Below are positions 5,494 to 33,956 of a stretch of DNA of 64,000 nt, piece after piece. The notes under the pieces were generated by a model. That model made no database searches and was not told where the DNA came from. It saw only the letters and a program-made list of their open reading frames with translations. The translations under genes were made by a program, and so were the position numbers. Origin of the DNA: Jiangella ureilytica. Its GTDB lineage: Bacteria; Actinomycetota; Actinomycetes; Jiangellales; Jiangellaceae. Every line of letters starts with the position of its first letter. Within the stretch, counting starts at the first letter, position 1. The stretch lies in NCBI RefSeq assembly GCF_004348545.1, contig NZ_SMKL01000003.1:1-64000 (forward strand), written 5' to 3'.

Positions 5494-5522
5494 GCGGGCA
5501 GCGTAGCCGCGTGCCGGTGGGC

Positions 5523-6416: not shown

Positions 6417-6440
6417 TCAGCACTCCCTGCCGGTCACCGC

Positions 6441-13834: not shown

Positions 13835-14644
13835 TCAGAGGCCGTCCTCGAGATGCCAATGCTGCTGCCAGCGCCAGTCGATCGGCTCGCCGGCCCGCTG
13901 GTACCGGATGTCGGTCGAGAGCCGGTAGTCGTCGTCGACGTTGTCCAGCGACGCGTGCACCGTGTAGGCCGAGTGCACCACCATGTCGCCGGCCGCGTAG
14001 CCCGCGACCAGCCAGCGCGCGTCGTGCTCGTCGGCCAGCGCCGGCAGGTCCGCGGTGATCGACGCCGCCGGGTGCGGCAGCGTCCCGGCCCGCTCCTGCG
14101 CGAGGACGCGGTGGTGGCTGCCCTCGAGGTAGGCGAGGCCGCCGCGCGAGACCGGGCAGTCGCCCAGCGGGATCCACGACGACAGCACCCGGTCGGTCCC
14201 CTCGCGCAGGTACACCAGGTCGTAGTGTGCCTGGGTGGCCGTGCCGATTCCGGACTCCCCCGGCCGCACGTGGCGGATCAGCTTGCGCCGGTGCAGGAAC
14301 GTCTCGCCGCCGAGGAACCAGGCGTACCAGTCGCGGACGGCGGGCTGGCTGCAGAACGCCTCGTACCGCGGGCCGGGGACGACCTCGTGGAACAGCAGCC
14401 GGCGGTACTCGGCGCGGTCCTCCTCTCCCTCCCATACGCCCGAGGGCGCCAGCGCGGCGTGGTAGTAGGCGCGGAAGCCGTTGACGACGCCGGGGTCCAG
14501 CGCGCCGCGCAGCCACAGGTAGCCGTCGCGGCGCAACCGCTGCCACAGCGCGTCGCGGTCGTGGCGCTCGTGGCCGGGGACGGGGTCCAGCTCGCCCAGC
14601 CGCCGGGCGGACTCGTCGAGCACGTAGCCGTTCGAGGTCAGCAT
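13835..14644 (-). CDS. Phytanoyl-CoA dioxygenase (PhyH) family protein
   Basis: 269 aa. It is a non-haem Fe(II)/2-oxoglutarate oxygenase with iron ligands His140 and Asp142 (AHYDLVY) and distal His230 (TVHASLDN). An Arg about ten residues later (STDIRYQ) would bind 2-oxoglutarate. It hydroxylates an unknown small molecule. ATG 14644 is chosen because the frame upstream enters the intergenic inverted repeat. It is divergent from the AraC-type gene at 14911, its likely regulator. Confidence 0.85.
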   Translation of the reverse strand: MLTSNGYVLDESARRLGELDPVPGHERHDRDALWQRLRRDGYLWLRGALDPGVVNGFRAYYHAALAPSGVWEGEEDRAEYRRLLFHEVVPGPRYEAFCSQPAVRDWYAWFLGGETFLHRRKLIRHVRPGESGIGTATQAHYDLVYLREGTDRVLSSWIPLGDCPVSRGGLAYLEGSHHRVLAQERAGTLPHPAASITADLPALADEHDARWLVAGYAAGDMVVHSAYTVHASLDNVDDDYRLSTDIRYQRAGEPIDWRWQQHWHLEDGL

Positions 14645-14720
14645 GCGACCACTGTCGCCGCGGCGGGGCCGCCCGGCCATGGACCAACGCGCCCGGCCCC
14701 TTGGACTTTCCCGCCGGCCC

Positions 14721-14792
14721 GTTGATCTCGGAGTGACCGCGGAATCAATCGGATGAATCACCCGGCAACTCGGCGGTTGCTCCACGATCGAC
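14721..14792. repeat. Intergenic inverted repeat element, copy 2 of 3
   Basis: The arms GTTGATCTCGGAG (14721-14733) and CTCCACGATCGAC (14780-14792) match at 10 of 13 positions. The spacing and internal CCGCGGA motif are like copy 1. It lies in the 266-bp gap between the divergent PhyH and AraC genes, which otherwise holds no gene. Confidence 0.65.
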
Positions 14793-14910
14793 TCGAGGGG
14801 AGCGAGCGGGCGACCGGCCCGGGGCGCCGGCGTCGACGCGGATACCCGGGCGGGGCGGGTTCGCCGGCCAACCAACGCGTCGGCATGACCGAGCTCTACG
14901 ATGTGCGGCC

Positions 14911-15744
14911 ATGAGCCGACGGCCCGGGGTCGCGTCGTGGACGCGGTACCTCACGCCCGACTCGCGGCACCGGCGGCTCGGCCTGGTCTGCCTCGGCGTC
15001 GGCACCACCACCGGGCGCGTGGCGACGCTGCCCGCCCGCACGCTGGACTGCTACGCCGTCGTCTTCCTGTCGCGCGGCACCGGACGGTTGCGGTGGGGCG
15101 GGCGGGAGCTGGCGCTCGTCGCGCCGACGCTGTTCTGGCTGCTCCCCGGCATCGAGCACGGTTACGGCCCCGATGCCGGGGGCTGGAACGAGTGGTGGGC
15201 GCTGTTCGACGGCCCGGCCGCGCGCGCCTACCAGGACCTCGGCCACGTCCCGCGCGACGAGCCGGTGGGCTCGGTCGCCGACGCGGCCGCGCTCGAGGTG
15301 GCCTTCGGTGCGCTGGCCCGCACCTGCCGCCCCGGCGACCCCTCGACCGACGTCGACGCGGCGGCGGCGATGCACCAGCTGATCCTCGCCACCCGGCGCG
15401 CGGCGGTCCCCGACCCCGTCGCCGGAACCCCCGTCCTCGCGACCCTGCTGCGTGACGCCTGCCTGCCGGTCACCGTCGCCGCCCACGCCCGCACCCTGGG
15501 CATGACGGAGGCCGCTCTGCGCGAGGCCACCCGGCGGGCGGCCGGCTGCAGTCCCAAGGAGTTCGTGCTGCGGGCCCGGCTCACGCGGGCGAAGGAGCTG
15601 CTCGCCGGCACCGACCTCCCCGTCGTCGCCGTCGCCGCCCGCATCGGCTACGACGACCCCGGCTACTTCACCCGCGTCTTCACCCGCCGGGTCGGCATGC
15701 CGCCCAGCCGCTTCCGCGAGCAGGAGCGCCGCGGCCCCCTCTGA
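14911..15744 (+). CDS. AraC-family transcriptional regulator
   Basis: 277 aa. The N-terminal half (about 20-150) is a cupin-like effector domain (WGGRELALVAPTLFWLLPGIEHGY). The C-terminal 100 residues hold the two helix-turn-helix motifs of the AraC family, ending in the conserved IGYDDPGYFTRVFTRRVGMPPSRFR. It is divergently paired with the PhyH gene and likely controls it in response to a small ligand. The stop codon touches the inverted repeat that starts at 15745. Confidence 0.88.
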   Translation: MSRRPGVASWTRYLTPDSRHRRLGLVCLGVGTTTGRVATLPARTLDCYAVVFLSRGTGRLRWGGRELALVAPTLFWLLPGIEHGYGPDAGGWNEWWALFDGPAARAYQDLGHVPRDEPVGSVADAAALEVAFGALARTCRPGDPSTDVDAAAAMHQLILATRRAAVPDPVAGTPVLATLLRDACLPVTVAAHARTLGMTEAALREATRRAAGCSPKEFVLRARLTRAKELLAGTDLPVVAVAARIGYDDPGYFTRVFTRRVGMPPSRFREQERRGPL

Positions 15745-15930
15745 ATGACCACGTTCACCACGAGAATCCCTGCCGTACGAGGCCTGCAGACCTCGTGAAG
15801 CAGCAGAACGCCTGGTGATGACCCCCACAGAGCGCGGGAAAGCGTTTGCCTCGGCTTCACGAGGATCGCCCCAGCATCACCACGGCTGCGGGCCTTCTGG
15901 AGCAGGGATTCGGGTGGTGAACGTGATCAT
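15745..15930. repeat. Long imperfect inverted repeat flanking a spacer
   Basis: The outer arms of 29 nt (15745-15773 and 15902-15930) match at 26 of 29 positions when one is reverse-complemented. Inside are a perfect 10-bp pair CCTCGTGAAG/CTTCACGAGG (15791-15800, 15855-15864) and GGTGATG/CATCACC (from 15814 and 15875). The two inner pairs are not nested, so alternative folds are possible. A half-site AATGACC.GGTTCACC recurs at 57066-57084. The 268-bp gap holds no other gene. It could be a degenerate MITE/REP element or a leader structure for the small protein at 16013. Confidence 0.7.
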
Positions 15931-16012
15931 CTCGGGGCCGGCAGGGGAGGTCGGCCCACCGTTTTCGGACATCGCCATCCGGGTACGGGCAGGTCGAAAG
16001 GGGGAACAGCCC

Positions 16013-16225
16013 ATGACCGAAGAGCACGAAGGCAGCCAGTCGCCGGGCAACCCGTCGACGCCGCCGTACCAGCCGGGCACCCAGTCGCCGGGCAATCCGT
16101 CGGAGGCGCCGGACGAGCCGGGCACGCAGTCGCCCGGCAACCCGACCACGCCGCCGGTGCCGCCCGAGACGCCGTCGCCGGGCAACCCACCCGCCGAGGA
16201 CACCGCCGCGGACCCGGCCGACTAG
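16013..16225 (+). CDS. Small proline-rich repeat protein (SPGNP repeats)
   Basis: 70 aa, preceded by a purine-rich AAGGGGGAAC site. After an acidic N terminus (MTEEHEG) it is built of four 15-residue units, each beginning QSPGNP or PSPGNP, followed by an acidic tail. There is no transmembrane segment, signal peptide or known domain. Composition (Pro, Gly, Ser, Thr, Glu, Asp; no Cys or Trp) predicts a fully disordered cytosolic peptide. No function is recognised. The repeat register is maintained at the protein level with codon variation, which argues that it is really translated. Confidence 0.6.
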   Translation: MTEEHEGSQSPGNPSTPPYQPGTQSPGNPSEAPDEPGTQSPGNPTTPPVPPETPSPGNPPAEDTAADPAD

Positions 16226-16228: not shown

Positions 16229-16606
16229 TCAGGCTCCGCCGCGCGCGGCCAGGATGTCGGGCAGGTGCCGTTCGATCCAGCCCACCAGCCCGACCACATG
16301 CGCGGCCGCCTGCTCGCCGAGCGCCGTCAGCCGGTACGTCACCTGCGGCGGCGCCGCCGGCGTGACCTGGCGGTCGACGAAGCCGTCGGCCGCCAGGGCG
16401 CGCAGCGTTTGCGCGAGCATCTTCTGGCTGACGCCGCCGATGCGCCGGTGCAGCTCACTGAAGCGCATCGGCCGTTCCCCCAGCGCCGCCAGCACCAGCA
16501 CGCCCCAGCGGCTCGTGACGTGCTCGAGCACGCCCCGCGACGGGCAGTTGGTGTCGAACACGTCACCATCGAGCGCCTGCAGCCCGGCGCTGACCTCGAC
16601 GCTCAC
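16229..16606 (-). CDS. HxlR-family transcriptional regulator
   Basis: 125 aa winged-helix regulator. The family N-terminal Cys (DTNCPSRGVLEHV) and the pattern WGVLVLAALGERPMRFSEL / GVSQKMLAQTLRAL are typical. The Cys often senses electrophiles or redox state in this family. It is divergent from the NmrA-type oxidoreductase at 16712, a standard regulator-target pairing. Confidence 0.9.
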   Translation of the reverse strand: MSVEVSAGLQALDGDVFDTNCPSRGVLEHVTSRWGVLVLAALGERPMRFSELHRRIGGVSQKMLAQTLRALAADGFVDRQVTPAAPPQVTYRLTALGEQAAAHVVGLVGWIERHLPDILAARGGA

Positions 16607-16620
16607 GTTCGCCTCCGTTG

Positions 16621-16640
16621 GTTACCTTGAGGTACGTACT
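16621..16640. promoter_or_regulatory. Candidate HxlR operator in the divergent promoter
   Basis: GTTACCTTGAGGTACGTAC (from 16621) contains an imperfect inverted repeat TTACC-TTGA-GGTAC and the palindrome GTACGTAC. It lies between the divergent HxlR and oxidoreductase genes, where HxlR proteins usually bind GTACC/GGTAC-type repeats. It also overlaps the region where both promoters must lie. Confidence 0.4.
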
Positions 16641-16711
16641 TTCTGTGGGTGAGTTTCCAGCGTAACGTCGCTTTCGTCGTGAGAACAGACCAAGGCGAGA
16701 GGGAGACAGAC

Positions 16712-17530
16712 ATGATCGTGGTGACCGGGGCGACCGGGCGGTTCGGGCCCATCGTGGTCGAGGACCTGCTGACGCGGGTGCCGGCCGGGGAGGTCGCCGT
16801 CGTCGCGCGCGACCCGGGAAAGGCCGCGCCGTTCGCCGACCGCGGCGTGGAGGTGCGCCGGGCCGACTATGACGACCCCGAGAGTCTGCGACGGGCGTTC
16901 GACGGCGCCGACCGGCTGCTGTTCACCTCGGCGTCGGACACCACGCCGGGCGTGCGGGCGCGCCAGCACACCAACGTCGTCGACGCGGCCGCGAAGGCCT
17001 CCGTCGGGCACGTGGTCTACACCAGCGCCATCACCGCCGAGGACGGGCAGAGCTTCCTGGCCGACCACACGGTGACGGAGCGGGCGATCCGCGACGCCGG
17101 GCTGAGCCACACCTTCCTGCGCAACACGTTCTACACCGAGGAGCTGGTCCGCCCCGAGCTGCTCGCCGCCGCCGTCGAGGCGGGCGAGCTGCCCGCCCCG
17201 CGCCACGAGCACCCGCTGGTGACGGCGCCGTTCGCCGACCTCGCGCTGGCCGCGAGCGCCGTTCTGACCGGCGACGGCCACGAGGGCGCGGTCTACGAGC
17301 TGCGCGGCCCCGGCTGGACCTACCCCGAGCTGGCGCAGGCGCTGAGCGAGGCGTCCGGCACGCCCGTCATGCACCGCGAGATCTCCGACGACGACGCCGG
17401 CGGCATGGCGTTCGTCCTGCCGCTGCTGCGACTCCCGCAGTTCGGCACGCCGGCACCGGACCTCGAGCGGCTGCTCGGCCGCCCGGTGATCCCGCTGGAG
17501 GACACGGTTCGGGCGGCCCTCGCGGCCTGA
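16712..17530 (+). CDS. NmrA/QOR2-like NAD(P)-binding oxidoreductase
   Basis: 272 aa atypical short-chain dehydrogenase. The Rossmann glycine motif GATGRFG (residues 6-12) binds NAD(P). The rest resembles NmrA-like quinone oxidoreductase 2/YtfG proteins (FTSASDTTPGVRARQHTNVVDAA, HVVYTSAI). It probably reduces quinones or senses NADP(H). The start is ATG 16712 after GAGGGAGA. The next gene begins within 50 bp on the same strand, so read-through into the ABC-kinase operon is possible. Confidence 0.82.
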   Translation: MIVVTGATGRFGPIVVEDLLTRVPAGEVAVVARDPGKAAPFADRGVEVRRADYDDPESLRRAFDGADRLLFTSASDTTPGVRARQHTNVVDAAAKASVGHVVYTSAITAEDGQSFLADHTVTERAIRDAGLSHTFLRNTFYTEELVRPELLAAAVEAGELPAPRHEHPLVTAPFADLALAASAVLTGDGHEGAVYELRGPGWTYPELAQALSEASGTPVMHREISDDDAGGMAFVLPLLRLPQFGTPAPDLERLLGRPVIPLEDTVRAALAA

Positions 17531-17578: not shown

Positions 17579-20014
17579 ATGACCGACGGCGACGGCCGCC
17601 GCGGCTCGGCCGCGCCGACGCTGGTGATGCGCGGCGTCACCAAGCGTTACGGACGGCTGCGGGCGCTCGACGGCGTCGACTTCGCGGTCCGCGGCGGCGA
17701 GATCGTCGCCGTGGTGGGCGAGAACGGCGCCGGCAAGTCCACCCTGGTGCGCTGCCTCGCCGGCGACATCGACATCGACGAGGGTCATGTCGAGGTGAGC
17801 CGGCCGGCCGCCGTGGTCTGGCAGGACCTCGGGCTCTGCGACGACCTCGACGTCGTGGCCAACGTCTTCCTCGGACGCGAGCGGTCGCGGGTGCTGCTGG
17901 CCGAGCGGCGCATGGCCGCCGATGCCCGCCGGGCCCTCGAACGGTTCGGCTCGCAGCTCACCGACGTCCACGCCCGCGTCGACACGCTCTCGCGCGGCCA
18001 GCGCCAAGAGGTCGCGCTCGCGCGGGCGCTGTCGGCCGACGCCGAGATCTTCATCCTCGACGAGCCGACGGCCTCGCTGAGCGTCCTGCGCCGGGCCGAG
18101 ATCATGCGGGTGCTCGGCGAGCTCCGCGACGCCGGCCGGGCCATCCTGCTGGTGAGCCACGACCTCGACGAGGTGTTCGCGCTGGCCGACCGCATCGTGG
18201 TGCTGCGCCACGGCCGTGTCGTCGCCGAGGCGTCACCGGCCGAGGTGCACTCCGACGACATCGCCGCGCTGATGTCGGGCATCGAGACCGAGTCGGCCGC
18301 CCGGCGGCAGCTGAACCGCCTCAAGAGCCTGGTCGAGCAGCTCTCGGCGGCCGACCCCGCGGCCTCCCTGCCGCTGGTCGTCTCCGCCACCGCAGCCGCG
18401 CTCGACCAGGACATGCTGTGCGTGCACCTGCTCGACCGCACGCCGCGGGGGTCCATGCTGCGCCGCTCCGCCGCCATCGGCCTGCCACCGGCGCTGGCCG
18501 GCGACGCCGAACTGCTGCCCATCGGCACCGCCGGTGGCCTGGTCGGCACGGCGGCCTCGCTCGGCCAGCTCGTCGTCACCGACGACCTCGGCGACGAGGC
18601 GGCCTGGACGGGGTACCTGCGGCTCGCGTCCGAGGCCGGCGTGCGCAGCGCGTGGTCGGCGCCCATCGTCGGCTCGGCCGGCGTCCTGGGCACCATCACC
18701 GGCTTCAGCACGTCCGCCGGCCGCCTCGACGCCGACCGGCGCGAGCTGGTCTCGCTCTACGCCGGGCACGCGGCCAGCGCCATCGAGCGCGAGCAGCTGA
18801 TCGACGAGGTCAGCCGGCGCAACGAGATCCTCGAGTCGCTGCGGGCCATGCTCGAGACCTTGGCCGGGCCCGACCGCGTCGACGGCGGCCTGTCCGCCGC
18901 GCTGCTGGCGCTCTGCCGTGGCCTGGGCGCGCGCACCGCCGGCATGCTCCTCACCGACGTGGCCGAGATCACCGGCGACGAGCCGCGCTGGGTGCACATC
19001 GGCATCGACGCGTCCGACGCCGCCGCCGCGTCCGACGGCGCGGAGCTGCGCCGGCTCGCCGAGTCCGCTCCCGACGGCGTCGACCGGCCGCAGCGCCTCG
19101 GCGACGGGCTGGCCATCGCCGGGCTGCCGATCCCGGGCGGGACGGGGCTGCTCCTCGCCCGGTGGGACGACCCCGCCGAGCCGGGCCGCGACGCCGTCGA
19201 GCTGCTCGACGACGCCCGCCGCTCGCTCGCCCTCGCCCTCGAACGCGAGGTGCTCGAACGGGCCCGCCGCGAGGCGGCCGCCGCCCGCCGGTCGCAGCAG
19301 CTGCAGCGCCAGGTGCTGCAGCAGCTCAGCCACGAGCTGCGCACGCCGCTGACCGCCATCCACGGGTACGCCTCCACGCTCCAGCAGCGCGACCTCACCT
19401 GGGACGCCGACTCCGTCGACCGCTTCCTCGCCGCCATCACCACCGAGTCCGCGCGCATGGAGCGTCTCGTGGGCGACCTGCTCGACTCCTCGGCGATCGA
19501 GTCCGGCCTGCTGCGGCTGCGCCGCGACTGGACCGACCTGCGGCTGGTCCTCGAGGCGGCCGCGGCCTGCGTCCCCGGCCGCGAGCGCATCCAGGTCAGC
19601 GTCGCCGCGGGCGTCCCGTCCATCTGGGCCGACCACGACCGCCTCGAGCAGGTGTTCGTCAACCTGCTCGAGAACGCGGTCCGCCACGGCGGCGCCGACG
19701 GCTGGGTCCAGGTCACCGCGGTGGCCGCCACCGACGCCTCCGCCGTCGAGATCCTGGTCAGCGACGACGGCGAGGGCATCCCGGCGGAGCTGGCCGAGCG
19801 GATCTTCGAGCCCCGTGTCCGCGGCGACGGCAGCACGGGCGCCGGGCTGGGGCTGACGATCGTCCGCGGCATCGCCGAGGCGCACGGCGGCCGGTGCGAC
19901 CTGCTGGCCGGGCCGCGGCCGGTCTTCCGCGTGACGCTCCCGGTCGAGCCCGCCGACGGCGACGCCGCGGAACGCGAGCTCGCCGACGCCACGGGAGCGC
20001 ATGGACGTGGCTGA
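17579..20014 (+). CDS. Fusion protein: sugar-type ABC ATPase + GAF sensor + histidine kinase
   Basis: 811 aa in one uninterrupted frame. Residues 14-235 are a single ABC nucleotide-binding domain of the XylG/FrcA sugar type: Walker A GENGAGKST (47-55), Q-loop in VVWQDLGLCDDLDVVANVFLG, a signature changed to LSRGQ (137-141), Walker B IFILDEPT (157-164) and H-loop His194. Residues about 260-405 form a GAF domain, and about 436-560 a weaker second GAF-like segment with a coiled linker. Then comes a HisKA/HATPase_c kinase: H-box His585 (LSHELRTPLT), N-box ENAV (698-701), G1 DDGEG (729-733), G2 GAGLGLT (754-760). No membrane segment. It overlaps the response-regulator gene by 14 nt and is followed by a binding protein and permease that lack their own ATPase. 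ATG 17543 (12 aa longer) is an alternative start. Confidence 0.93.
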   Translation: MTDGDGRRGSAAPTLVMRGVTKRYGRLRALDGVDFAVRGGEIVAVVGENGAGKSTLVRCLAGDIDIDEGHVEVSRPAAVVWQDLGLCDDLDVVANVFLGRERSRVLLAERRMAADARRALERFGSQLTDVHARVDTLSRGQRQEVALARALSADAEIFILDEPTASLSVLRRAEIMRVLGELRDAGRAILLVSHDLDEVFALADRIVVLRHGRVVAEASPAEVHSDDIAALMSGIETESAARRQLNRLKSLVEQLSAADPAASLPLVVSATAAALDQDMLCVHLLDRTPRGSMLRRSAAIGLPPALAGDAELLPIGTAGGLVGTAASLGQLVVTDDLGDEAAWTGYLRLASEAGVRSAWSAPIVGSAGVLGTITGFSTSAGRLDADRRELVSLYAGHAASAIEREQLIDEVSRRNEILESLRAMLETLAGPDRVDGGLSAALLALCRGLGARTAGMLLTDVAEITGDEPRWVHIGIDASDAAAASDGAELRRLAESAPDGVDRPQRLGDGLAIAGLPIPGGTGLLLARWDDPAEPGRDAVELLDDARRSLALALEREVLERARREAAAARRSQQLQRQVLQQLSHELRTPLTAIHGYASTLQQRDLTWDADSVDRFLAAITTESARMERLVGDLLDSSAIESGLLRLRRDWTDLRLVLEAAAACVPGRERIQVSVAAGVPSIWADHDRLEQVFVNLLENAVRHGGADGWVQVTAVAATDASAVEILVSDDGEGIPAELAERIFEPRVRGDGSTGAGLGLTIVRGIAEAHGGRCDLLAGPRPVFRVTLPVEPADGDAAERELADATGAHGRG

Positions 20015-20711
20015 GGCGCCCGGAGTCCTCATCGTCGAGGACGACCGCACGATCGTCGACCTGCTGCGGTCCAACCTGACCGCGCGGGGCTACCGCGTCG
20101 TGGTGTCGCCCGACGGCGCCGACGTGCTGCGCCTGCTCGACGAGGCGGCGCCCGACGTCGTGCTGCTCGACCTCATGCTGCCCGGCCGCGACGGCTTCGA
20201 CCTCTGCTGGGCCGTGCGCGACCGCTCCGACGTCGGCATCATCGTGCTGTCCGCGCGGCGCGGCGAGACCGACAAGGTGCGGGCGCTCAACCTGGGCGCC
20301 GACGACTACCTCACCAAGCCGTTCGGCATCGAGGAGCTGCTCGCCCGCATCCACGCGACCATGCGCCGGGCCCGCACCCCGTCCCCGCCGCGCCAGCCGG
20401 CGCCGCCCGACGTGCGGGTCGGCGACGTGCGCATCGACTTCGACGCGCAACTGGTCACCAAGGCCGGCAAGCGGGTGCACCTGACGCGCACCGAGTACGC
20501 GCTGCTGCGCGAGCTGGCCACCAACCCCGGGCGGCTGCTGTCGCACGCCGAGCTGCTGCAGCGGGTGTGGGGGCCGGGCTACGAGACGCAGACGGAGTAC
20601 ACCCGGGTCTACGTGGGTCGCCTGCGGGCCAAGCTCGAGGGCGACGACGGCCCGGAGCTGATCGTCACGGAGCCGCGCGCGGGCTACCGGTTCACCACGG
20701 ACCACCGATGA
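20001..20711 (+). CDS. OmpR/PhoB-type response regulator
   Basis: 236 aa. Receiver domain with the acidic pocket Asp14/Asp15, phosphoacceptor Asp57 (LLDLMLPG), Ser84, Tyr103 and Lys106. The C-terminal winged helix (about 135-232) is of OmpR type (TRTEYALLRELATNPGRLLSHAEL, TRVYVGRLRAKL). Its start lies 14 nt inside the ABC-kinase gene and its stop overlaps the next start (ATGA), so the three genes are translationally coupled. The fused kinase is its evident partner. Likely targets are its own operon or the paralogous transporter at 24.3 kb, which is inference. Confidence 0.95.
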   Translation: MDVAEAPGVLIVEDDRTIVDLLRSNLTARGYRVVVSPDGADVLRLLDEAAPDVVLLDLMLPGRDGFDLCWAVRDRSDVGIIVLSARRGETDKVRALNLGADDYLTKPFGIEELLARIHATMRRARTPSPPRQPAPPDVRVGDVRIDFDAQLVTKAGKRVHLTRTEYALLRELATNPGRLLSHAELLQRVWGPGYETQTEYTRVYVGRLRAKLEGDDGPELIVTEPRAGYRFTTDHR

Positions 20712-21811
20712 CCCGCCGCCTCACCGCCGCGGCACTGCCCGTCGTGCTCGCCTTCGCCGTGGTCGCGTCCGCCTGCGGAGTAGTGGCCGGCGGCGACGGC
20801 GACGGCTACCGCATCGCGTTCCTGCTGCCGGAGAACAAGACCGCCCGCTACGAGTCGCACGACCGCCCCGCGTTCGTCGAGCGGGTCGCCGAGGTGTGCC
20901 CCGAGTGCGAGACGATCGTCAGCAACGCCGACCAGGACGCCGCACACCAGCAGGCGCAGGCCGAGGCCGCCATCACCAACGGCGCCGACGTGCTGGTGCT
21001 CGACCCGGTCGACTCGCGGGCCGCGTCGGTCATCGCCCGGCACGCCGACGCCGCCGGCATCCCCGTCGTCAGCTACGACCGGCTGGTCCTCGACGCGCCG
21101 GTCGACTTCCACGTCACCTTCGACAACGAGCGGGTCGGCCGGCTCCAGGCCTCGGTGCTGCTCGACGCCGTGGGTGAGCGCGCCGCCGGCGCCATGGGCT
21201 CCGTGGTGGTGCTGAACGGCTCGCCCACCGACGACAACTCCGCGCAGTTCCGTCAGGGCGCCCGCATGGTCTTCGAGGCCGGCGGCGTGACCATCGGCAG
21301 CGAGGCCGACATCCCCGACTGGTCGCCGGACCAGGCGCAGGAGGCCATGGAACGGGCGCTCGCCACACTGGGCCGCGACCAGGTCGCCGGCGTCTACGCC
21401 GCCAACGACGGCATGGCCGGAGGCGCCATCGCCGCCATGAAGGCCGCAGGCCTCGACCCGCTGCCGCCGGTCACGGGGCAGGACGCCGAGCTGGCCGCCG
21501 TGCGCCGCATCCTCACCGGCGAGCAGTACATGACGGTCTACAAGGCGGTGCGCACCCAGGCGCGCTCGGCCGCCGACCTCGCCGTCGGCCTGGCCCGCAC
21601 CGGCGAGCCCCCCGAGGGCATGCGCAACAGCACGGTCGACAACGGCTACGCCCAGATCCCGGCGCTCATGCTGGAGCCGGTCGCCGTCACCCGCGAGACG
21701 ATCGCGGGCACCGTCGTCGCCGACGGGTTCTGGTCGGTCGACGAGATCTGCGACGGCCTCGCGCCCCAGTGCGCGGCGGCCGGCCTCACCGCCACCGGGC
21801 CGGCGTCGTGA
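20708..21811 (+). CDS. Sugar ABC transporter substrate-binding lipoprotein (XylF-like), set 1
   Basis: 367 aa. Lipoprotein signal with the lipobox-like VASAC near residue 23. It is a periplasmic-binding-protein-like class I domain resembling D-xylose-binding XylF (YDRLVLDAPVDFHVTFDNERVG, VLNGSPTDDNSAQF, TGQDAELAAVRRILTGEQYMTVYK). A CPEC pair near residue 63 and two C-terminal Cys (EICDG...QCAAAGL) are shared with the paralogue at 24301. Overlaps of 4 nt upstream (ATGA) and 1 nt downstream (TGATG) place it between the response regulator and permease. It probably binds a pentose and delivers it to the kinase-fused transporter. Confidence 0.92.
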   Translation: MTRRLTAAALPVVLAFAVVASACGVVAGGDGDGYRIAFLLPENKTARYESHDRPAFVERVAEVCPECETIVSNADQDAAHQQAQAEAAITNGADVLVLDPVDSRAASVIARHADAAGIPVVSYDRLVLDAPVDFHVTFDNERVGRLQASVLLDAVGERAAGAMGSVVVLNGSPTDDNSAQFRQGARMVFEAGGVTIGSEADIPDWSPDQAQEAMERALATLGRDQVAGVYAANDGMAGGAIAAMKAAGLDPLPPVTGQDAELAAVRRILTGEQYMTVYKAVRTQARSAADLAVGLARTGEPPEGMRNSTVDNGYAQIPALMLEPVAVTRETIAGTVVADGFWSVDEICDGLAPQCAAAGLTATGPAS

Positions 21812-22950
21812 TGGCGCCGGTGTCGACGGCCCGCCTCGGCCGCCTCGCTCCGCCGCTCGCGCTGGTCGTGATCTGGCTGGTCATGACCCTGATCAACCCG
21901 CGGTTCCTGTCCGCCGTGAACCTCACCAACCTCATGCTGCAGATCGTGGCCGTCGGCGCCGTCGCGGTGGCGGTGGTGCTGGTGCTCCTGATCGGCGAGA
22001 TCGACCTGTCCGTCGGGGCGGTGTCGGGCCTGGGCGCCGGCGTCACCGCCGTGCTGAGCGTGAAGCAGGACTGGCCCGCCGTCCTCGCGATCATCGCCGG
22101 GCTGCTGACCGGCGCGCTGGTCGGCCTGCTGCACGCCACCATCGTGACCCGCGTCGGGGTCGCCTCGTTCGTGGTCACATTGGCGGGCCTGCTGACCTGG
22201 CAGGGCGCCCTGCAGCTCGTGCTCGGCGAGACCGGCACCGTCAACCTCGACGACCCGCAGCTGGTGGCCATCGCCGGCACCTTCCTCTCCCCCGCGCTCG
22301 GCTGGCTGATCGCCGCCGTCATCACGGCCGCGGCGGTCGCGGCGGTCGTGGTGCACCTGCGCGCCGACCGGCCGCGCCGGGTCTGGCCGTGGGTGCTCGC
22401 CGGCACCGTCGCGCCGGTGGCGGTCCTGGTCTTCAACGCCGACCGCGGCGTGCCGCTCGCCGTCGTCGTGTTCCTCCTCCTGCTCGCCGGCGGCGACGTC
22501 GTGATGCGCCGCACCACGCTCGGCCGGCACGCCGTGGCGACGGGGAGCAACGCGTCGGGGGCGCGCCGGGCCGGCATCGCCGTCGACCGCATCCGCATGA
22601 CGGTGTTCGCGCTCGCCTCGGTGCTCGCCGTCACCGGCGGCATCCTGGCCGCGTCGCGGCTGCTCGCCGTCAACCAGTCCTCGGGCAGCACCGACCTGAT
22701 GCTGACCGCCGTCGCCGCGGCGGCCATCGGCGGGGCGAGCCTGTTCGGCGGCCGCGGCACCGTGTGGTCGGCGCTGCTGGGCGCGCTCGTGGTCGGCTCG
22801 CTGGCCAACGGCCTTGACTTGCTGGGCGCCTCGTCGGCGATCCGGCTGATCGCCACCGGAGTGGTGCTCGCGCTCGCCGTCGGGCTCGACACCGTCGCCC
22901 ACCGGGCCGAGCGGCAGCCGTTCACCGAGCATTCGCGGCCCGGCCGCTAG
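21811..22950 (+). CDS. Sugar ABC transporter permease (XylH-like), set 1
   Basis: 379 aa, about ten transmembrane helices, of the monosaccharide permease family (BPD_transp_2). Conserved blocks: LLIGEIDLSVGAVSGLGAG, VASFVVTLAGLLTWQG and the coupling region TLGRHAVATGSNASGARRAGI, which contacts the ATPase. Such permeases act as homodimers, requiring two ATPase subunits. The only ATPase in this operon is the histidine-kinase fusion. The start overlaps the binding-protein stop (TGATG); GTG 21808 is an in-frame alternative. Confidence 0.93.
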   Translation: MAPVSTARLGRLAPPLALVVIWLVMTLINPRFLSAVNLTNLMLQIVAVGAVAVAVVLVLLIGEIDLSVGAVSGLGAGVTAVLSVKQDWPAVLAIIAGLLTGALVGLLHATIVTRVGVASFVVTLAGLLTWQGALQLVLGETGTVNLDDPQLVAIAGTFLSPALGWLIAAVITAAAVAAVVVHLRADRPRRVWPWVLAGTVAPVAVLVFNADRGVPLAVVVFLLLLAGGDVVMRRTTLGRHAVATGSNASGARRAGIAVDRIRMTVFALASVLAVTGGILAASRLLAVNQSSGSTDLMLTAVAAAAIGGASLFGGRGTVWSALLGALVVGSLANGLDLLGASSAIRLIATGVVLALAVGLDTVAHRAERQPFTEHSRPGR

Positions 22951-23003: not shown

Positions 23004-24206
23004 GTGACGACAACGCGGCCCGGATCACTCTCCGCCCTTCGGCTGGCCAACCAACGACGGCTGCTGTCCGCCCTGCAGGACGGGCGCCAGATCAGCCAGG
23101 CCGAGCTCGCGCGGCTGACCGGCCTCGCCCCCGCGACGGTGTCCGGGCTCGTGCGCGACCTCGCCGACGAGGGCGAGCTCGTGGTCGGCGAGGGCGTGGC
23201 CAACGGCCGGCGCAGCCGCATGGTCCAGCGCGCGCCCGGACGCCTGCGCTACGGGATCGGGATGTACCTCGGCCGCGCGCACGTCGAGGCGGTCGCCGGG
23301 ACCGAGGCGGGTGACCTGCTCGCGGAGTCGTCGGCCGAGCTCGCCCGGGGCTACGCGCCGGACGCCGCGGCCGAGGCCGTCGTCGCCCTCGCGACCGAGG
23401 TGCGCGAGCGGGCCGGCCTGACGCCGGACCAGGTCTTCGGCGTCGCCGTCGCGGTGCCGGCCCCCGTCGACGTGCGGACCGGCACCCTGACCGAGCCGGT
23501 GATCCTGCCGGCGCTCGTCGGCGTCCCGCTGCGCGAGCGGCTGCGCGAGGCGCTGGGGCGCCCGGTGGTCGTCGAGAACGACGCGAACCTCGGCGCGCTC
23601 GCCCTGACCCGCCGGGCCGGCGCCGGGCCGGGCCCGCTGGTGTACGTCAAGGTCGCGACCGGCATCGGGGCCGGCGTGGCCGTCGACGGCCGCCTCGTTC
23701 GCGGCGCCGCCGGATCGGCCGGCGAGATCGGGCACCTGCCGCTGGACCCGGGTCTGACGACGGTGTGCCGCTGCGGGCGCCGCGGCTGTCTCGAGACCGT
23801 CGGCTCCGCGGAGTCCGTCCGCGCCGCGCTGGCCGGGGCGCTGCGCCGCGACCTCGCCACGGCCGACGTCCACGACCTGATCGCGGCCGGGCATCCGGTC
23901 GCGGTCCGGGTGCTCGAGGACGCCGGCGAGGCGCTGGGCCGCGGGCTGGGCTGGCTCTCGATGGTGGTCGACCCGGCCGAGATCGTGCTCGGCGGGCCGC
24001 TGACCGCCGCCGGGGACGCCTGGCTGGGCCCGGTGGAGCGGGGCTTCCGCCGCGCGGTCCTGCCCGGCGTGGCGCGGCGGACCCGGATCACCCTCTCGCC
24101 GCTGGGCGAGAGCACCGAGGCCGTGGGCGCGCTGATCGCCAGCCTGATGGAGAATTCGCACATTGCCGTCGAAATGCGAACAGATAAACAAGATGTAAAC
24201 GCGTAA
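23004..24206 (+). CDS. ROK-family transcriptional regulator (XylR-type)
   Basis: 400 aa, GTG start. An N-terminal winged helix (about 10-70: ISQAELARLTGLAPATVSGLVRDL) is followed by a ROK sugar-kinase fold with the zinc motif CRCGRRGCLE (about 253-262) and the GEIGHLP segment. The kinase ATP motif (DxGxT) is degenerate (GMYLGRAHV), as in regulatory members. It sits between two paralogous xylose-type transporter sets and probably represses one or both until sugar binds. Its 3' end is unusually AT-rich and may overlap the promoter of the next gene. Confidence 0.92.
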   Translation: MTTTRPGSLSALRLANQRRLLSALQDGRQISQAELARLTGLAPATVSGLVRDLADEGELVVGEGVANGRRSRMVQRAPGRLRYGIGMYLGRAHVEAVAGTEAGDLLAESSAELARGYAPDAAAEAVVALATEVRERAGLTPDQVFGVAVAVPAPVDVRTGTLTEPVILPALVGVPLRERLREALGRPVVVENDANLGALALTRRAGAGPGPLVYVKVATGIGAGVAVDGRLVRGAAGSAGEIGHLPLDPGLTTVCRCGRRGCLETVGSAESVRAALAGALRRDLATADVHDLIAAGHPVAVRVLEDAGEALGRGLGWLSMVVDPAEIVLGGPLTAAGDAWLGPVERGFRRAVLPGVARRTRITLSPLGESTEAVGALIASLMENSHIAVEMRTDKQDVNA

Positions 24207-24248
24207 TGTATTTGAGCCTTGACGGCAATCCGAGCGACGCACCAGACT
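24162..24248 (+). promoter_or_regulatory. Promoter/operator region of transporter set 2
   Basis: A perfect 9-bp inverted pair ATTGCCGTC (24162-24170) and GACGGCAAT (24221-24229) brackets an AT-rich stretch containing TAAAC-AAGATG-TAAAC (from about 24185). TTGACG at 24219-24224 is a fair -35; CAGACT at 24243-24248 is a weak -10 at 18-bp spacing. The right half-site overlaps the -35, a suitable place for ROK or response-regulator control. The upstream part lies within the ROK coding end. Confidence 0.4.
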
Positions 24249-24300
24249 CGTCCCACCCGGACCGGTCCGACGATCCGTGGCGACCCAAAGGAGGGTTAAC

Positions 24301-25380
24301 GTGCACCAGCCCATTCGACGGGCTGCCGTCTTGACCATCGCCGCCCTGGCGGCCGGCACGCTGGCGGCCTGTGGCGCCAACGAGGAGGCCGGCGGCGGCG
24401 GGGACGACGAGACCGGCGGTGGCGCCGCCACCATCGCGCTGCTGCTGCCCGAGTCGGCGACCGCCCGCTACGAGGCGTTCGACAAGCCGCTGTTCGAGGC
24501 CAAGATCCAGGACCTGTGCGCCGACTGCGAGGTCGTGTACTTCAACGCCGACCAGGACGAGGCCCAGCAGGCCGAGCAGGTCGACTCCGCGATCTCGCAG
24601 AACGTCGACGTCATGGTGCTGGACCCGGTGAACGGTGTCGCCGCGGCCTCCCTGGTGGCCGACGCGCAGGCCGCCGACATCCCGGTCATCGCCTACGACC
24701 GCTTCATCGAGGGTGCGGACTACTACACCTCGTTCGACAACGAGCGGGTCGGCGAGCTGCAGGGCCAGGCCCTGGTCGACGCCGTCGGCGGTCCCGGCAA
24801 CATCCTCATGCTGAACGGGTCGCCCGACGACCCCAACGCGGCCCAGTTCAAGGCCGGCGCCCACAGCGTCATCGACGCCAGCGAGCTGACCATCCTGGCC
24901 GAGTACGACAACCCGGACTGGAGCCCGGACAACGCCCAGTCCTTCACCACGGACCAGCTCGACACCATCGACCCGACCACGCTGGCCGGCGTCTACGCCG
25001 CCAATGACGGCCAGGCCGGCGGCGTCATCGCGGCGCTGACCGGTGCGGGCATCGCGCCCGACGCGCTGCCGCCGGTGACCGGTCAGGACGCGGAGCTCGC
25101 CGCGATCCAGCGCATCGTCGCCGGTGAGCAGTACATGACGATCTACAAGCCGATCAAGGGCGAGGCCGAGGGCGCCGCCGAGATGGCCATCTCGATCGTC
25201 AACGGCGAAGAGGTCGCCGACACCACCGACTTCCAAGGCGTGCCGTCGCTGATCCTCGACCCGATCGTGGTGACCGCCGACAACGTCGGCGACACCGTCG
25301 TGGCCGACGGGTTCTGGAGCGTCGACGAGATCTGCACCGCCGACTACGCGGACGCCTGCGCGGCCGCCGGGCTCAGCTGA
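24301..25380 (+). CDS. Sugar ABC transporter substrate-binding lipoprotein (XylF-like), set 2
   Basis: 359 aa, GTG start after the ideal site AAAGGAGGG (24288-24296). Lipobox TLAAC near residue 24, then a Gly/Glu/Asp-rich linker. The fold and blocks match XylF and closely parallel the set-1 protein (LLLPESATARYEAFDKPLFE, YDRFIEGADYYTSFDNERVGELQ, GDTVVADGFWSVDEIC). It shares the CADC pair and the C-terminal Cys pair with its paralogue. It is likely the high-affinity pentose receptor for the ATPase and permease that follow; the hairpin at 25400 could raise its expression relative to them. Confidence 0.93.
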   Translation: MHQPIRRAAVLTIAALAAGTLAACGANEEAGGGGDDETGGGAATIALLLPESATARYEAFDKPLFEAKIQDLCADCEVVYFNADQDEAQQAEQVDSAISQNVDVMVLDPVNGVAAASLVADAQAADIPVIAYDRFIEGADYYTSFDNERVGELQGQALVDAVGGPGNILMLNGSPDDPNAAQFKAGAHSVIDASELTILAEYDNPDWSPDNAQSFTTDQLDTIDPTTLAGVYAANDGQAGGVIAALTGAGIAPDALPPVTGQDAELAAIQRIVAGEQYMTIYKPIKGEAEGAAEMAISIVNGEEVADTTDFQGVPSLILDPIVVTADNVGDTVVADGFWSVDEICTADYADACAAAGLS

Positions 25381-25399
25381 TCCGTCGAGACGACGTCAG

Positions 25400-25440
25400 G
25401 GGTGGCACTGGAGCCGGGAATCTCCCGGCCGGTGCCACCC
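25400..25440 (+). terminator. Two-tier hairpin between binding protein and ATPase genes
   Basis: The outer stem GGGTGGCAC/GTGCCACCC (25400-25408, 25432-25440) and inner stem GCCGGGA/TCCCGGC (25413-25419, 25423-25429) stack into one long hairpin. It lies 20 bp after the binding-protein stop and 26 bp before the ATPase start. It is a likely partial terminator or mRNA-stabilising structure giving excess binding protein. Confidence 0.6.
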
Positions 25441-25466
25441 TTGATCCGAGTGAGGAGATGGTGCGG

Positions 25467-26303
25467 ATGAGCGTCGCCACGCACGAGAGCGGGTCCCCCG
25501 CGCAGACGACAGAGCCGGTCCTGGAGCTCACCGGGATCGGCAAGCACTTCGGCGCCGTGCAGGCGCTGGCCGGCGTGGACTTCCGGGTCCACCCCGGCGA
25601 GGTGGTCGCCCTGGTCGGCGACAACGGCGCGGGCAAGTCGACCCTCGTCAAGATCATGTCCGGCGTGTACCAGGCCGACTCCGGCAGGATGCGCGTCGAG
25701 GGCCGGGAGGTGCACGTGCACAGCCCCAGCGCCGCACAGTCATTGGGCATCGCCACGGTCTTCCAGGACCTCGCGCTCTGCGACAACCTCGACGTCGTGG
25801 GCAACCTGTTCCTCGGCAGCGAGCTCGGCTCGAACGCCTGGATGGACGAGGTGGCCATGGAGAAGGAGTCGTGGCGGTTGCTGCGCGAGCTCGGCGCCAA
25901 GATCCCGACGGTGCGCATCCCCGTCGCCAGCCTCTCCGGCGGACAGCGGCAGACCGTGGCCATCGCCCGCAGCCTGGTCGGCAGCCCGAAGGTGGTCATG
26001 CTCGACGAGCCGACCGCCGCCCTGGGCGTCGCGCAGACCGCAGAGGTGCTGAACCTCGTCGAGCGGCTGCGCGAGCAGAACCTCGGCGTGGTCCTGATCA
26101 GCCACAACATGGCCGACGTGCAGGCCGTCGCGGACCGCATCGTGGTTCTGCGCCTGGGCCGCAACGAGGCCGAGTTCCGCACCGTCGACGTCACGACCGA
26201 ACAGCTCGTCGCCGCCATCACCGGCGCGTCGGACAACGTCGTGGCCGAGCGCCACGCCCGCCGCGTCCCGCCGGCGACCGAGACCGGGGAGGTCGAGGCA
26301 TGA
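25467..26303 (+). CDS. Sugar ABC transporter ATPase (single NBD), set 2
   Basis: 278 aa single nucleotide-binding domain of the FrcA/XylG N-half type: Walker A GDNGAGKST, Q-loop VFQDLALCDNLDVVGNLFLG, canonical signature LSGGQ, Walker B VVMLDEPT, H-loop His in LISHN. RbsA-type relatives have two tandem domains; this one has a single one, like the domain in the kinase fusion at 17579. Both also share the DLxLCDxLDVV Q-loop context, indicating paralogy. ATG 25467 gives 9-nt spacing to GGAG; ATG 25458 abuts the site and is less likely. Confidence 0.93.
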   Translation: MSVATHESGSPAQTTEPVLELTGIGKHFGAVQALAGVDFRVHPGEVVALVGDNGAGKSTLVKIMSGVYQADSGRMRVEGREVHVHSPSAAQSLGIATVFQDLALCDNLDVVGNLFLGSELGSNAWMDEVAMEKESWRLLRELGAKIPTVRIPVASLSGGQRQTVAIARSLVGSPKVVMLDEPTAALGVAQTAEVLNLVERLREQNLGVVLISHNMADVQAVADRIVVLRLGRNEAEFRTVDVTTEQLVAAITGASDNVVAERHARRVPPATETGEVEA

Positions 26304-27562
26304 GCACTACGCGGACGGCTCCCACCGACGAGACGGCGGCCCGCGCCGACCTCATCGACGAGCGGCTCGCCCAGGACACCGGCCTGCGCGGCGCCGCCGA
26401 CGCGTTCCGCCGCCGGGTCCGCGACGGCGACCTCGGCCTGCTGCCGGTGGTCGTGGGACTGTTCGTCATCGGCCTGGTCTTCTACCTGCAGGACGTCACG
26501 TACCTGTCGTCGAGCAACCTGGTCAACATCACGCTGAACGCGGTGCCGTACGGCATCATCGCGGTCGGCGTCGTGCTGGTGCTGCTGCTCGGCGAGATCG
26601 ACCTGTCCGTCGGCTCCATCAGCGGGCTGGCGGGGTCCATCACGGCGGTGCTGGTGGTGCAGCAGGGTCAGCCGCTGGTGCTGGGGCTGCTGGCCGGCGC
26701 CGGGACGGGTGCGGTCATCGGCATCGCGTACGGCCTGATCTTCACCAAGATCGGCGTGCCGAGCTTCGTCATCACGCTGGCCGGCCTGCTCGGCTTCGTC
26801 GGCCTGCAGTACGTGGTGCTCGGCGACACCGGCACCATCAACCTGCCGCGCACCTCGCCGCTGGCCCAGTTCGCCCGCGAGGACTTCCTCAGCCCGGCGG
26901 TGTCCTACGTCGCCGTGGTGGTCGTCGTCGTGGCGTACGCGCTGGTCAGCATCATCGGGATCCGGCGCCGGACGGCGGCCGGGCTGCCCGCGCAGTCGCT
27001 GACGCTGGTGCTGGGCAAGTCGGCGATCATGCTGGCCGGCCTCGGCTTCCTCACGTACTACCTGAACATCGACCGCGGCTGGGGCTTCGCGGTGGTCTTC
27101 TTCGTCGCGCTGGTCGTGGTTCTCGACCTGGTGCTGCGCAAGACCACCTGGGGCCGGCACCTGTACGCCGTCGGCGGCAACGTCGAGGCGGCCCGCCGCT
27201 CCGGCATCAACGTGAACTGGATCTACATCTCGGCGTTCTCGCTGACCGGCCTGCTGGCGGCGACCGGCGGCCTGATGTTCCTCGCCCGGCTGACGTCGGT
27301 GTCGCAGGCCAGCGGCAGCAACGACGTCAACCTCACCGCGATCGCGGCGGCCGTCATCGGCGGCGTCAGCCTGTTCGGCGGCCGGGGCTCGGCCTACTCC
27401 GCCCTGCTGGGCGTGCTGGTGCTGACCGCCATCAACAGCGGCTTGAACCGCATCGGCGTGGACTCCTCGGTGCGCTACATCGTCACCGGGGCGGTCCTGC
27501 TGCTCGCGGTGTCGATCGACGCCATCGCCCGGCGCGCCCGCGCCAGCAGCGGCCGAGGTTGA
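26300..27562 (+). CDS. Sugar ABC transporter permease (XylH-like), set 2
   Basis: 420 aa, ATGA overlap with the ATPase gene. It has a soluble N-terminal stretch of about 45 residues, then ten or so membrane helices of the XylH family (LLLGEIDLSVGSISGLAGS, VPSFVITLAGLLGFVGLQ, TTWGRHLYAVGGNVEAARRSGI, GGVSLFGGRGSAYSALLG). With the gene pair before it, it makes a complete conventional importer, in contrast to set 1. A strong terminator follows. Confidence 0.94.
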   Translation: MSTTRTAPTDETAARADLIDERLAQDTGLRGAADAFRRRVRDGDLGLLPVVVGLFVIGLVFYLQDVTYLSSSNLVNITLNAVPYGIIAVGVVLVLLLGEIDLSVGSISGLAGSITAVLVVQQGQPLVLGLLAGAGTGAVIGIAYGLIFTKIGVPSFVITLAGLLGFVGLQYVVLGDTGTINLPRTSPLAQFAREDFLSPAVSYVAVVVVVVAYALVSIIGIRRRTAAGLPAQSLTLVLGKSAIMLAGLGFLTYYLNIDRGWGFAVVFFVALVVVLDLVLRKTTWGRHLYAVGGNVEAARRSGINVNWIYISAFSLTGLLAATGGLMFLARLTSVSQASGSNDVNLTAIAAAVIGGVSLFGGRGSAYSALLGVLVLTAINSGLNRIGVDSSVRYIVTGAVLLLAVSIDAIARRARASSGRG

Positions 27563-28359: not shown

Positions 28360-29111
28360 ATCACGTCCCGCCACTGCGCCGCGAGGTGCTGGTCCAAGCC
28401 GCACCGGCGGTCGCCTTCGACGTGTTCACCAGCCGCATCGGCCGCTGGTGGCCGCTCGCCGAGCACGGCGTCTACCACGAGCGCGCCGCCACCGTCGTCT
28501 TCGACGGCGGCGTCCTCGTCGAGCGCTCGACGACGGGCGAAGAGTCCGTGTGGGGCACGGTGACCCACTGGGAGCCGCCCGCGACGGTCGCGTTCACCTG
28601 GCATCCGGGCCGGCCGGCGGACGCCGCCGGCCTGGTCGAGGTCTCCTTCGGCGCCGTCGACGGCGGCACGCTGGTGACGTTGCGGCACAGCGGCTGGGAG
28701 GCCTATGCCGACCCGGCCGCGGCCCGCGCCGACTACGACCACGGCTGGCCCACGGTGCTCGGCCGCTACAGTGACGAGGTCGCCCGGGCCGGCGACGCGG
28801 CGACCTGGGCGCTGCTGCTGCACCGCCCGGCTCCGGACGCGGGTATCGCCGGGCCGATCGTCGACGACCCGCGGTTCCGCGAGCACGTCGCGTTCCTCGG
28901 CCGCATGCGGGCCGCCGGGCATCTGGTCGCCGCCGGCCCGCTCGGCGACGCCGACGGCGAAGGGGTCACCGTCCTGCGGCTGCCGGGGTCCGGCCGCGAC
29001 GCCGAGATCGTCCGGCTCGCCAGCGAGGACGACCGCAGCGTCCGCGACGGCCTGTTCACCGTCGCGGTGCGGCCGTGGCGGGTGACGCTTACCGGCCCGA
29101 ATGACGGGTGA
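28356..29111 (+). CDS. SRPBCC (AHSA1-like) protein fused to a YciI-like domain
   Basis: 251 aa, coupled to the ArsR gene with GAGGTGGAG upstream. Residues 1-145 are an AHSA1/START-type ligand-binding fold (VAFDVFTSRIGRWWPLAEHGV ... GGTLVTLRHSGWEAY). Residues 150-250 match the small YciI alpha-beta fold (WALLLHRPAP ... HVAFLGRMRAAGHLVAAGPLGD). These are normally separate proteins that often share ArsR-linked operons. The role is probably binding or detoxifying a small organic molecule under ArsR control; the substrate is unknown. Confidence 0.82.
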   Translation: MNHVPPLRREVLVQAAPAVAFDVFTSRIGRWWPLAEHGVYHERAATVVFDGGVLVERSTTGEESVWGTVTHWEPPATVAFTWHPGRPADAAGLVEVSFGAVDGGTLVTLRHSGWEAYADPAAARADYDHGWPTVLGRYSDEVARAGDAATWALLLHRPAPDAGIAGPIVDDPRFREHVAFLGRMRAAGHLVAAGPLGDADGEGVTVLRLPGSGRDAEIVRLASEDDRSVRDGLFTVAVRPWRVTLTGPNDG

Positions 29112-29164
29112 TTGTCCAGTTCTTTCGTATTCTTGCACCGGGTTTTGCTGTACTTTGACCGAGT

Positions 29165-32178: not shown

Positions 32179-32261
32179 GGTCTCAGGGTATGTCCGGATC
32201 CGAGGGATAGGTGTCCATCAAGACAGCGCGCCTCGGCGCCGCCGCGACGCACGCTGGGACC

Positions 32262-32900: not shown

Positions 32901-32910
32901 CCTGCCGGGC

Positions 32911-33237
32911 ATGAGCACCGACACGCCCGCGGCCATCCAGGCGTTCATCGACGCGACCAACCGCGGCGACACCGAGGCGTTCGTCGCCGCCTTCACCGAC
33001 GACGCGTACCTCAACGACTGGGGTCGCGAGTTCCACGGCCACGACGGCGTGCGCAGCTGGGACGGCACCGACAACATCGGCAAGCAGTCGCATTTCGAAC
33101 TGCTCGCGATCGAGCCCGGCGCGGAACCGGAGAGCTACGTCGCCACGCTGAAGGTCACGGGGAACGGCTTCAACGGCACCGGCCCCATGGCCTTCCAGCT
33201 CCGCGACGGGCTCATCGCGAGCGTGCGCATCAGCTGA
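32911..33237 (+). CDS. SnoaL/NTF2-like small protein
   Basis: 108 aa single cone-shaped domain (IQAFIDATNRGDTEAFVAAFTDDAYLNDWGREFHGHDGVRSW). This group includes polyketide cyclases, isomerases and orphan binding proteins. It is only 10 bp after the HD-domain gene, so probably in the same transcript. Function is not assignable. Confidence 0.8.
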   Translation: MSTDTPAAIQAFIDATNRGDTEAFVAAFTDDAYLNDWGREFHGHDGVRSWDGTDNIGKQSHFELLAIEPGAEPESYVATLKVTGNGFNGTGPMAFQLRDGLIASVRIS

Positions 33238-33936: not shown

Positions 33937-33956
33937 CCGCGCAGTATCCTTCGGCC

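Follow-up and report, generated by a model that had tools for sequence, protein, structure and literature searches.

We analysed a 64,000-nucleotide stretch of the Jiangella ureilytica genome (contig NZ_SMKL01000003.1, positions 1 to 64,000; hereafter the window) in which a single reading frame joins the ATPase of an ATP-binding cassette (ABC) importer to GAF-type domains and a histidine kinase. The fusion gene is followed by genes for an OmpR-type response regulator, a XylF-like binding lipoprotein (SBP1) and a XylH-like permease (PERM1), with gene overlap at all three junctions. The features of this operon are as follows.

17579..20014, + strand: ABC ATPase-GAF-GAF-histidine kinase fusion, 811 aa, stop-free single frame
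17615..18232, + strand: CUT2/XylG-type ATPase domain of the fusion, residues 13-218
18365..18793, + strand: GAF domain of the fusion, residues 263-405
18881..19162, + strand: second GAF-like domain of the fusion, about residues 435-528, from predicted structure only
19304..19507, + strand: HisKA domain of the fusion, with His585, residues 576-643
19631..19948, + strand: HATPase_c domain of the fusion, residues 685-790
20001..20711, + strand: OmpR-type response regulator, Response_reg and Trans_reg_C (Pfam)
20708..21811, + strand: SBP1, XylF-like binding lipoprotein (Pfam/NCBIfam, PDB match)
21811..22950, + strand: PERM1, XylH/GguB-like permease, BPD_transp_2 (Pfam), with a coupling helix specific to the loci called type A below

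The original prediction had read a complete ATPase, GAF-like regions and a HisKA/HATPase_c kinase from this frame, and a domain search of 17579-20014 recovered all of them: Pfam places ABC_tran at residues 30-165 (E 1.1e-24), GAF_2 at 266-403, HisKA at 576-643 and HATPase_c at 685-790, and an in-frame ATG at 17543 offers an alternative start that would add 12 residues. The ATPase half has an intact Walker A, Q-loop, LSRGQ signature, Walker B and H-loop, and the kinase half intact H, N, G1 and G2 boxes. The best NCBIfam matches are AraG, YtfR and XylG for the first 250 residues and HisKA kinases for the C-terminal end, all below the equivalog cut-offs. An AlphaFold2 model built from a 20-member alignment (mean pLDDT 81, pTM 0.37) delimits the ATPase at 13-218, a GAF domain at 263-405 and a helix at 385-428, and a further helix at 537-602 continues into the phosphoacceptor domain; the second GAF-like fold, at about 435-528, is predicted by this model in a region with no Pfam annotation. 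Foldseek matches the model to ABC ATPases, HK853-type kinases and phytochromes. No clear membrane segment is present in the window fusion (maximum 19-residue hydropathy 1.38; values of up to 2.11 in other fusions fall in alanine-rich stretches), and neither hydropathy nor the model points to an extracytoplasmic region. The partner genes were also as predicted: the regulator belongs to the OmpR family, with Asp57 read off the sequence as phospho-acceptor, and the best PDB match of SBP1 is E. coli XylF (3m9w, E 1.3e-54). A sequence search of the PDB at E 0.01 gave no relative for PERM1, and its interface is therefore judged from conservation alone.

The ABC ATPase-kinase fusion is a genuine protein and no artefact, because full-length copies exist in other species as well, at identities as low as 41-50%; the open frame and this conservation rule out a chance, frameshift or assembly fusion. 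The ratio of nonsynonymous to synonymous substitution, which codon bias makes unreliable, is compatible with purifying selection. Only one full-length copy was found in the window's own genome. Directly 3' of PERM1, at 23004-27562, stands a second, canonical set of genes.

23004..24206, + strand: ROK-family regulator of the downstream canonical set (Pfam)
24277..25380, + strand: SBP2, XylF-like binding protein (Pfam/NCBIfam)
25458..26303, + strand: NBD2, free single-domain CUT2 ATPase (Pfam/NCBIfam)
26300..27562, + strand: PERM2, XylH/GguB-like permease (Pfam/NCBIfam)

The claim that the set contains no other ATPase thus holds for the four-gene operon and fails for its surroundings, where NBD2 follows directly. 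This arrangement, the fusion operon and then ROK, SBP2 and NBD2, is found in all nine distinct Jiangella loci viewed.

Distribution, locus architecture and conservation

We searched for further fusions with profiles of the linker-GAF region in genome sets that overlap. Within the family it was detected in 12 of 22 genomes, and within the class in at least 16 of 393; counting only matches that span the whole profile, it was present in at least 4 of 396 genomes of the phylum, 4 of 30 of the order of genome G628, at least 5 of 247 of the class of G466 and 1 of 35 of the family of G172, where the class, phylum and G466-class figures are lower bounds because scoring in these sets was confined to the 7 or 12 top candidate places of each genome. 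Partial profile matches were not counted as fusions (G039, G421, G496 and G556 in the phylum set; G275 in the G172 family set; G421, G496, G871, G878, G879, G887, G910 and G954 in the G466-class set). A scan of 84,980 species with six peptides, the sole look beyond Actinomycetota and one that would miss diverged copies, returned seven full-length relatives, all from Actinomycetota. Among 12 Jiangella genomes, three (G113, G134 and G209) yielded no fusion, and these also have no close NBD2 (best 42-49% identity).

A neighbourhood search found the same fusion in other Actinomycetota genomes, in two architectures. Twenty-five loci were viewed in full, and two further ones, L050 and L113, break off at contig ends; the fusion is also present in G059, G102 and G226, and neighbourhoods under those handles are not among the loci viewed. 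Type A loci comprise fusion, regulator, SBP1 and PERM1 with no free ATPase in the operon (14 loci including the window: nine Jiangella, three Phytoactinopolyspora, G628 and G758). In type D loci, the fusion and regulator are followed by a gap and then by genes for a binding protein, a free ATPase and a permease (11 loci: L011, L012 of Trebonia, L051, L052, L053, L071, L073, L110, L111, L112 and L114). Both types occur within one genus, G628 being type A and G541 type D. At L053 (G172), a ribose-type importer also lies directly upstream of the fusion (3306-7569), beside a LacI-like regulator and a PfkB-like sugar kinase, both assigned by eye.

The fused ATPases form one clade separate from free ATPases (100/100) in a tree that carries a long-branch warning, several of the long branches being fused ATPases. 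By this sequence evidence the fusion has a single origin and a scattered distribution in Actinomycetota. Type A forms one clade for the fusion (98/98), the permease (95/90) and the binding protein (90/89), which argues that these genes travel together; type D permeases form no separate clade and are intermixed with permeases of sets that have no fusion.

Motif integrity was tabulated in 28 rows, two of which, L007 and L061, are one locus. L010 and L054 likewise stand for a single locus, as do L051 and L119, and L058 is nearly identical to L059. Of the 28 rows, 27 retain the ATPase motifs Walker A, Q-loop, signature (LS.GQ or LS.GE), Walker B and H-loop, and all 27 that reach the H, N and G2 boxes of the kinase retain these; G1 has its typical form (DxGxG) in 26 of 27, L073 having DGAP. 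The ATPase exception is L109, a type A locus on a 64% complete draft in which sequencing error could lie behind the changes: Q-loop Gln is replaced by Gly, signature Ser by Gly and H-loop His by Arg, and the kinase and the stretch behind the Q-loop are retained. This stretch together with the Q-loop (residues 79-101), which we take to be the permease interface, is the best conserved ATPase segment of the fusions and likewise of the free ATPases. Its mean pairwise identity is 70.6% among 15 representative fusions (Walker A 68.3, signature 66.5) and 81.1% among 16 free ATPases (signature 80.7). Within this segment, type A proteins read LGLC[DE]DLDV (FGLCPDLDV in L072) and most type D rows LALC.NL; in the coupling helix, PERM1 proteins read GSNAS (GSDAR in L072, GSNPD in L109) and other permeases GGN.EA (GGSVEA in L118), so that in type A the ATPase docking stretch and the PERM1 coupling helix show matched changes. 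Ahead of the Q-loop, the alignment shows the window ATPase to be about 13 residues shorter than those of L011 and L012, and the other type A copies it contains 2-10 residues shorter.

The interpretation first offered was that the fused ATPase drives SBP1-PERM1 transport while the kinase reads its turnover, so that flux controls expression. The intact catalytic motifs, the type A operon with no free ATPase in 14 of 14 loci viewed and the matched changes in permease and ATPase all fit this reading, as does the conservation of the predicted docking stretch, through which the fused ATPase might energise a cognate permease. Powering transport is nevertheless not the general job of the fusion, because 11 of the 25 fully viewed loci have an importer with its own free ATPase, encoded within the same operon. 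The idea is weakened further by the motif losses in L109, by the shortened window ATPase, by the operator that two type A genomes have ahead of another importer (below) and by the free CUT2 ATPases of the type A genomes examined (among them G192, G200, G628 and G090), which could serve PERM1. We consider this reading unlikely, though it may hold for the window.

Alternatively, the ATPase might no longer dock and instead serve as a soluble ATP- or energy-sensing or dimerisation domain, with the transporter genes as regulated targets only. Such a role would fit the longer branches of the fused ATPases, the free ATPase available in type D loci and the motif loss in L109. It sits poorly with a docking stretch that is the best conserved part of the ATPase and is retained even in L109, and with the dedicated permease and binding protein kept in type A, each of which forms one clade as the fusion does. 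On balance, an undocked ATPase seems very improbable.

Candidate operators and the response regulator

The original prediction also held that gene expression would be controlled through the kinase, and half-sites of a kind bound by OmpR-type regulators do stand before importer genes. In the gap of type D loci, GTTCAC-like half-sites occur at 0, 11, 31 or 32 and 42 or 43 bp, all on one helix face, as direct repeats ahead of the importer genes in 11 of 11 loci. When matrices were built with the tested locus removed, plus its sister for three close pairs, the gap site ranked first of 28,830-39,904 positions in every one of these loci, with a narrow margin in L112 (23.2 versus 19.8) and L053 (15.5 versus 11.5). 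A -10-like TANNNT follows the final half-site at a distance of 11 bp in 8 of the 11 loci and of 12 bp in 2 more, against a background of 23 in 3172 (0.7%); half-sites followed by a -10 element at such spacing are the layout of PhoB-activated promoters. Sixteen of 18 training pairs score at least 20, and no repeat pair above 14.9 was found in seven control loci from genomes with no detected fusion; five of these loci contain a ROK gene, partial in one case, and in one of the seven, L139, we found no binding-protein gene. Upstream of the fusion gene itself, 18 of 20 stretches have no operator at threshold, and L051 and L050 have one weak match each (9 of 12).

A scan for two pairs scored above 30 in 9 of the 11 type D loci (L011 17.6, L012 16.4). 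Across 754 kb of other loci, partly repeated and with the re-fetched type D stretch L119 set aside, only the type A Phytoactinopolyspora genomes G192 (34.0) and G200 (32.4) exceeded 30, the next independent locus scoring 16.2. Each of these two sites ends 103-109 bp upstream of a binding-protein gene that belongs to an importer convergent with PERM1; the components of this importer match GlcS, GlcT and GlcU most closely, with scores below cut-offs. An operator before a different importer counts against the flux model of the original prediction. In G758, the fusion is immediately preceded on its own strand by GlcU- and GlcT-like genes.

In the window itself, the best pair scores 24.0 and the next 10.7.

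24184..24200, - strand: direct-repeat pair GTTTACATCTTGTTTAT, in a conserved block before SBP2; candidate site of the regulator or of ROK

This pair lies in a block of about 60 bp (24170-24235) that is nearly identical in all nine Jiangella loci, covers the end of the ROK gene and the SBP2 promoter, and terminates in a -35-like TTGACG. The block is present in 7 of 7 Jiangella genomes with the fusion and 0 of 3 without, a contrast confounded by the missing close NBD2: G113, G134 and G209 have neither the exact block nor a close NBD2, which makes the comparison uninformative. The single-pair pattern, run on 10 Jiangella genomes, occurs at 6 places in the window's own genome versus 2 for a control pattern, and several of the places also occur in Jiangella genomes with no fusion; we derive no additional Jiangella target from this pattern. 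At G164:C1:770106-770471, GTTCACGCYTGGTTCAC is repeated four times at a spacing of about 116 bp, and more copies occur in G164 and G144; this GTTCACGCYTGGTTCAC array is some tandem repeat, unrelated to the operator.

The repeats could instead belong to another regulator, the ROK repressor or MtrA, with the regulator of the fusion acting elsewhere; this concerns the output only and is compatible with the remaining readings. Wherever viewed, the window block is accompanied by an orthologous ROK gene, so that a ROK operator is equally possible at the window pair, and we did not accept the block as proof of binding by the regulator. MtrA boxes are GT-rich direct repeats, and MtrA is the best NCBIfam match of the regulator, below the cut-off. 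Against such a reassignment, the repeats are found in 11 of 11 type D and 0 of 7 control loci, despite the ROK genes in five of the controls, and the Phytoactinopolyspora stretches viewed around the two-pair sites yielded no ROK gene. That the repeats belong to another regulator seems improbable.

A proposed permease-docked kinase and its precedents

The reading we favour, at somewhat better than an even chance, is that the kinase docks on a permease through its own ATPase, reads the state of that ATPase and activates sugar import. From the data above we infer docking, conformational signalling, repeat binding, activation, the sugar and the sign of the signal. The protein would be a soluble histidine kinase whose input domain is an ABC-importer ATPase. 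Two ATPases are required by a homodimeric permease, and kinases act as dimers, so one ATPase and one kinase per chain suits both; with a conserved docking stretch and no membrane helices, the ATPase is the likely anchor. The ATPase halves would dimerise at the cytoplasmic face of a homodimeric xylose-type permease, with the kinase dimer seated under the transporter. Loaded binding protein and ATP would set the closing and opening of the ATPase dimer, and its state would be relayed through the two GAF-type domains and signalling helices to the balance of kinase and phosphatase activity. The regulator would then bind the GTTCAC-type direct repeats and activate a sugar importer. In type D, the target would be the cognate importer with its free ATPase. 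The type A set of SBP1, PERM1 and fused ATPase looks more like a dedicated sugar sensor than the main pump; it may serve mainly as a sugar receptor that perhaps still transports to some extent, and its output would be another importer, GlcSTU-like in Phytoactinopolyspora and probably 24277-27562 in the window.

Several points weigh against a permease-docked sensor of this kind. The relative placement of the domains in the fusion model is not reliable at a pTM of 0.37; PERM1 and the fusion may be a real pump, the catalytic motifs being intact; and the fused ATPases are longer-branched than free ones, which could mean a different job. The type D repeats were initially picked by eye, and in the -10 spacing analysis the second pair was moved by one base in four loci. 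No site was found near the G628 or G758 fusions. The window has a single repeat pair, oriented opposite to the SBP2 gene (an orientation shared in Phytoactinopolyspora), within the block that ROK accompanies wherever it was seen. Finally, among the 20 regulator rows in which the recognition helix was compared, Gly or Ala stands in 9 of 9 type A rows where Arg stands in 11 of 11 type D rows, so that the type A regulator site may differ.

Among the closest known systems is PstSCAB-PhoU-PhoR/PhoB, in which kinase output tracks the conformation of an importer ATPase, as it would here. The Pho box likewise consists of direct repeats bound by an OmpR-type regulator. The ATPase, PhoU adaptor and membrane kinase are separate there, whereas here ATPase and kinase form one soluble chain, the transporter is of xylose type and no PhoU-like gene is seen in the operons, including the eight window operon proteins scanned with Pfam and NCBIfam. 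One study reports that PstB conformation sets PhoR output and that PstB mutants predicted to lock in the open or the closed state signal in opposite ways with no transport taking place (PMC5775613). This precedent is among the reasons for which we favour a permease-docked kinase that reads the ATPase state.

Bce modules consist of separate proteins with a membrane kinase, and their cue is peptide antibiotics; here, by contrast, the soluble kinase bears the ATPase itself in one chain, and the permease belongs to BPD_transp_2. In BceAB-BceS, the ABC transporter interfaces with the histidine kinase (PMC11109136). Type A would resemble in its logic systems with a sensing-only binding protein, CuaD-CuaS-CuaR and XylFII-LytS. 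XylFII-LytS uses such a sugar-binding protein likewise. In these the binding protein contacts an extracellular part of a membrane kinase, whereas the window kinase has no apparent membrane or extracytoplasmic part, and permease and fused ATPase would relay the signal. CuaD is described as a second, sensing-only sugar-binding protein that governs the genes of another importer (PMC10384115). The same families of binding protein, permease and ATPase make up XylFGH CUT2 importers; the differences are that the ATPase here bears a kinase and that the type A operon has no free ATPase gene.

These loci would add a family of two-component receptors that take a complete ABC importer as input, with an external binding protein, a membrane permease and an ATPase that continues covalently into the kinase, and, in type A, a whole importer core converted from pump to sugar receptor with a different importer switched on as its output; we put this forward tentatively, at a little under an even chance. 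Transporter-coupled signalling has the precedents above, and we found none for the covalent design or the apparent pump-to-receptor change. The original prediction knew of no such system, and no published ABC ATPase-histidine kinase fusion was evident from titles or abstract beginnings among the matches listed, in a search that left subscription journals and preprints mostly uncovered. Kinases that listen to ABC transporters are known, with a coupling between separate proteins that is hard to measure. The fusion makes the coupling covalent: each chain carries a single ATPase and a single kinase, the homodimeric permease matches this, and a predicted promoter provides the read-out. It also comes with natural contrasts, since some loci have a free ATPase and others do not, G541 and G628 differing in this inside a single genus, and one draft copy has broken ATPase motifs. 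Whether a transporter-linked kinase reads flux, occupancy or ATPase shape thereby becomes directly testable, and the design is a template for sugar-responsive gene switches.

Immediately 5' of the window fusion, at 16229-17530, lie a divergent HxlR regulator and an NmrA-like gene, a pair found in 8 of 9 distinct Jiangella loci (the exception is L008); there is nearly no gap between the NmrA-like gene and the fusion, so the operon may begin at the former. Further upstream, a small open reading frame of QSPGNP-type repeats (15815-16225) has a similar counterpart at the equivalent place in L060, and 13835-15744 holds a PhyH-type dioxygenase gene divergent to an AraC-like gene, the latter assigned by eye.

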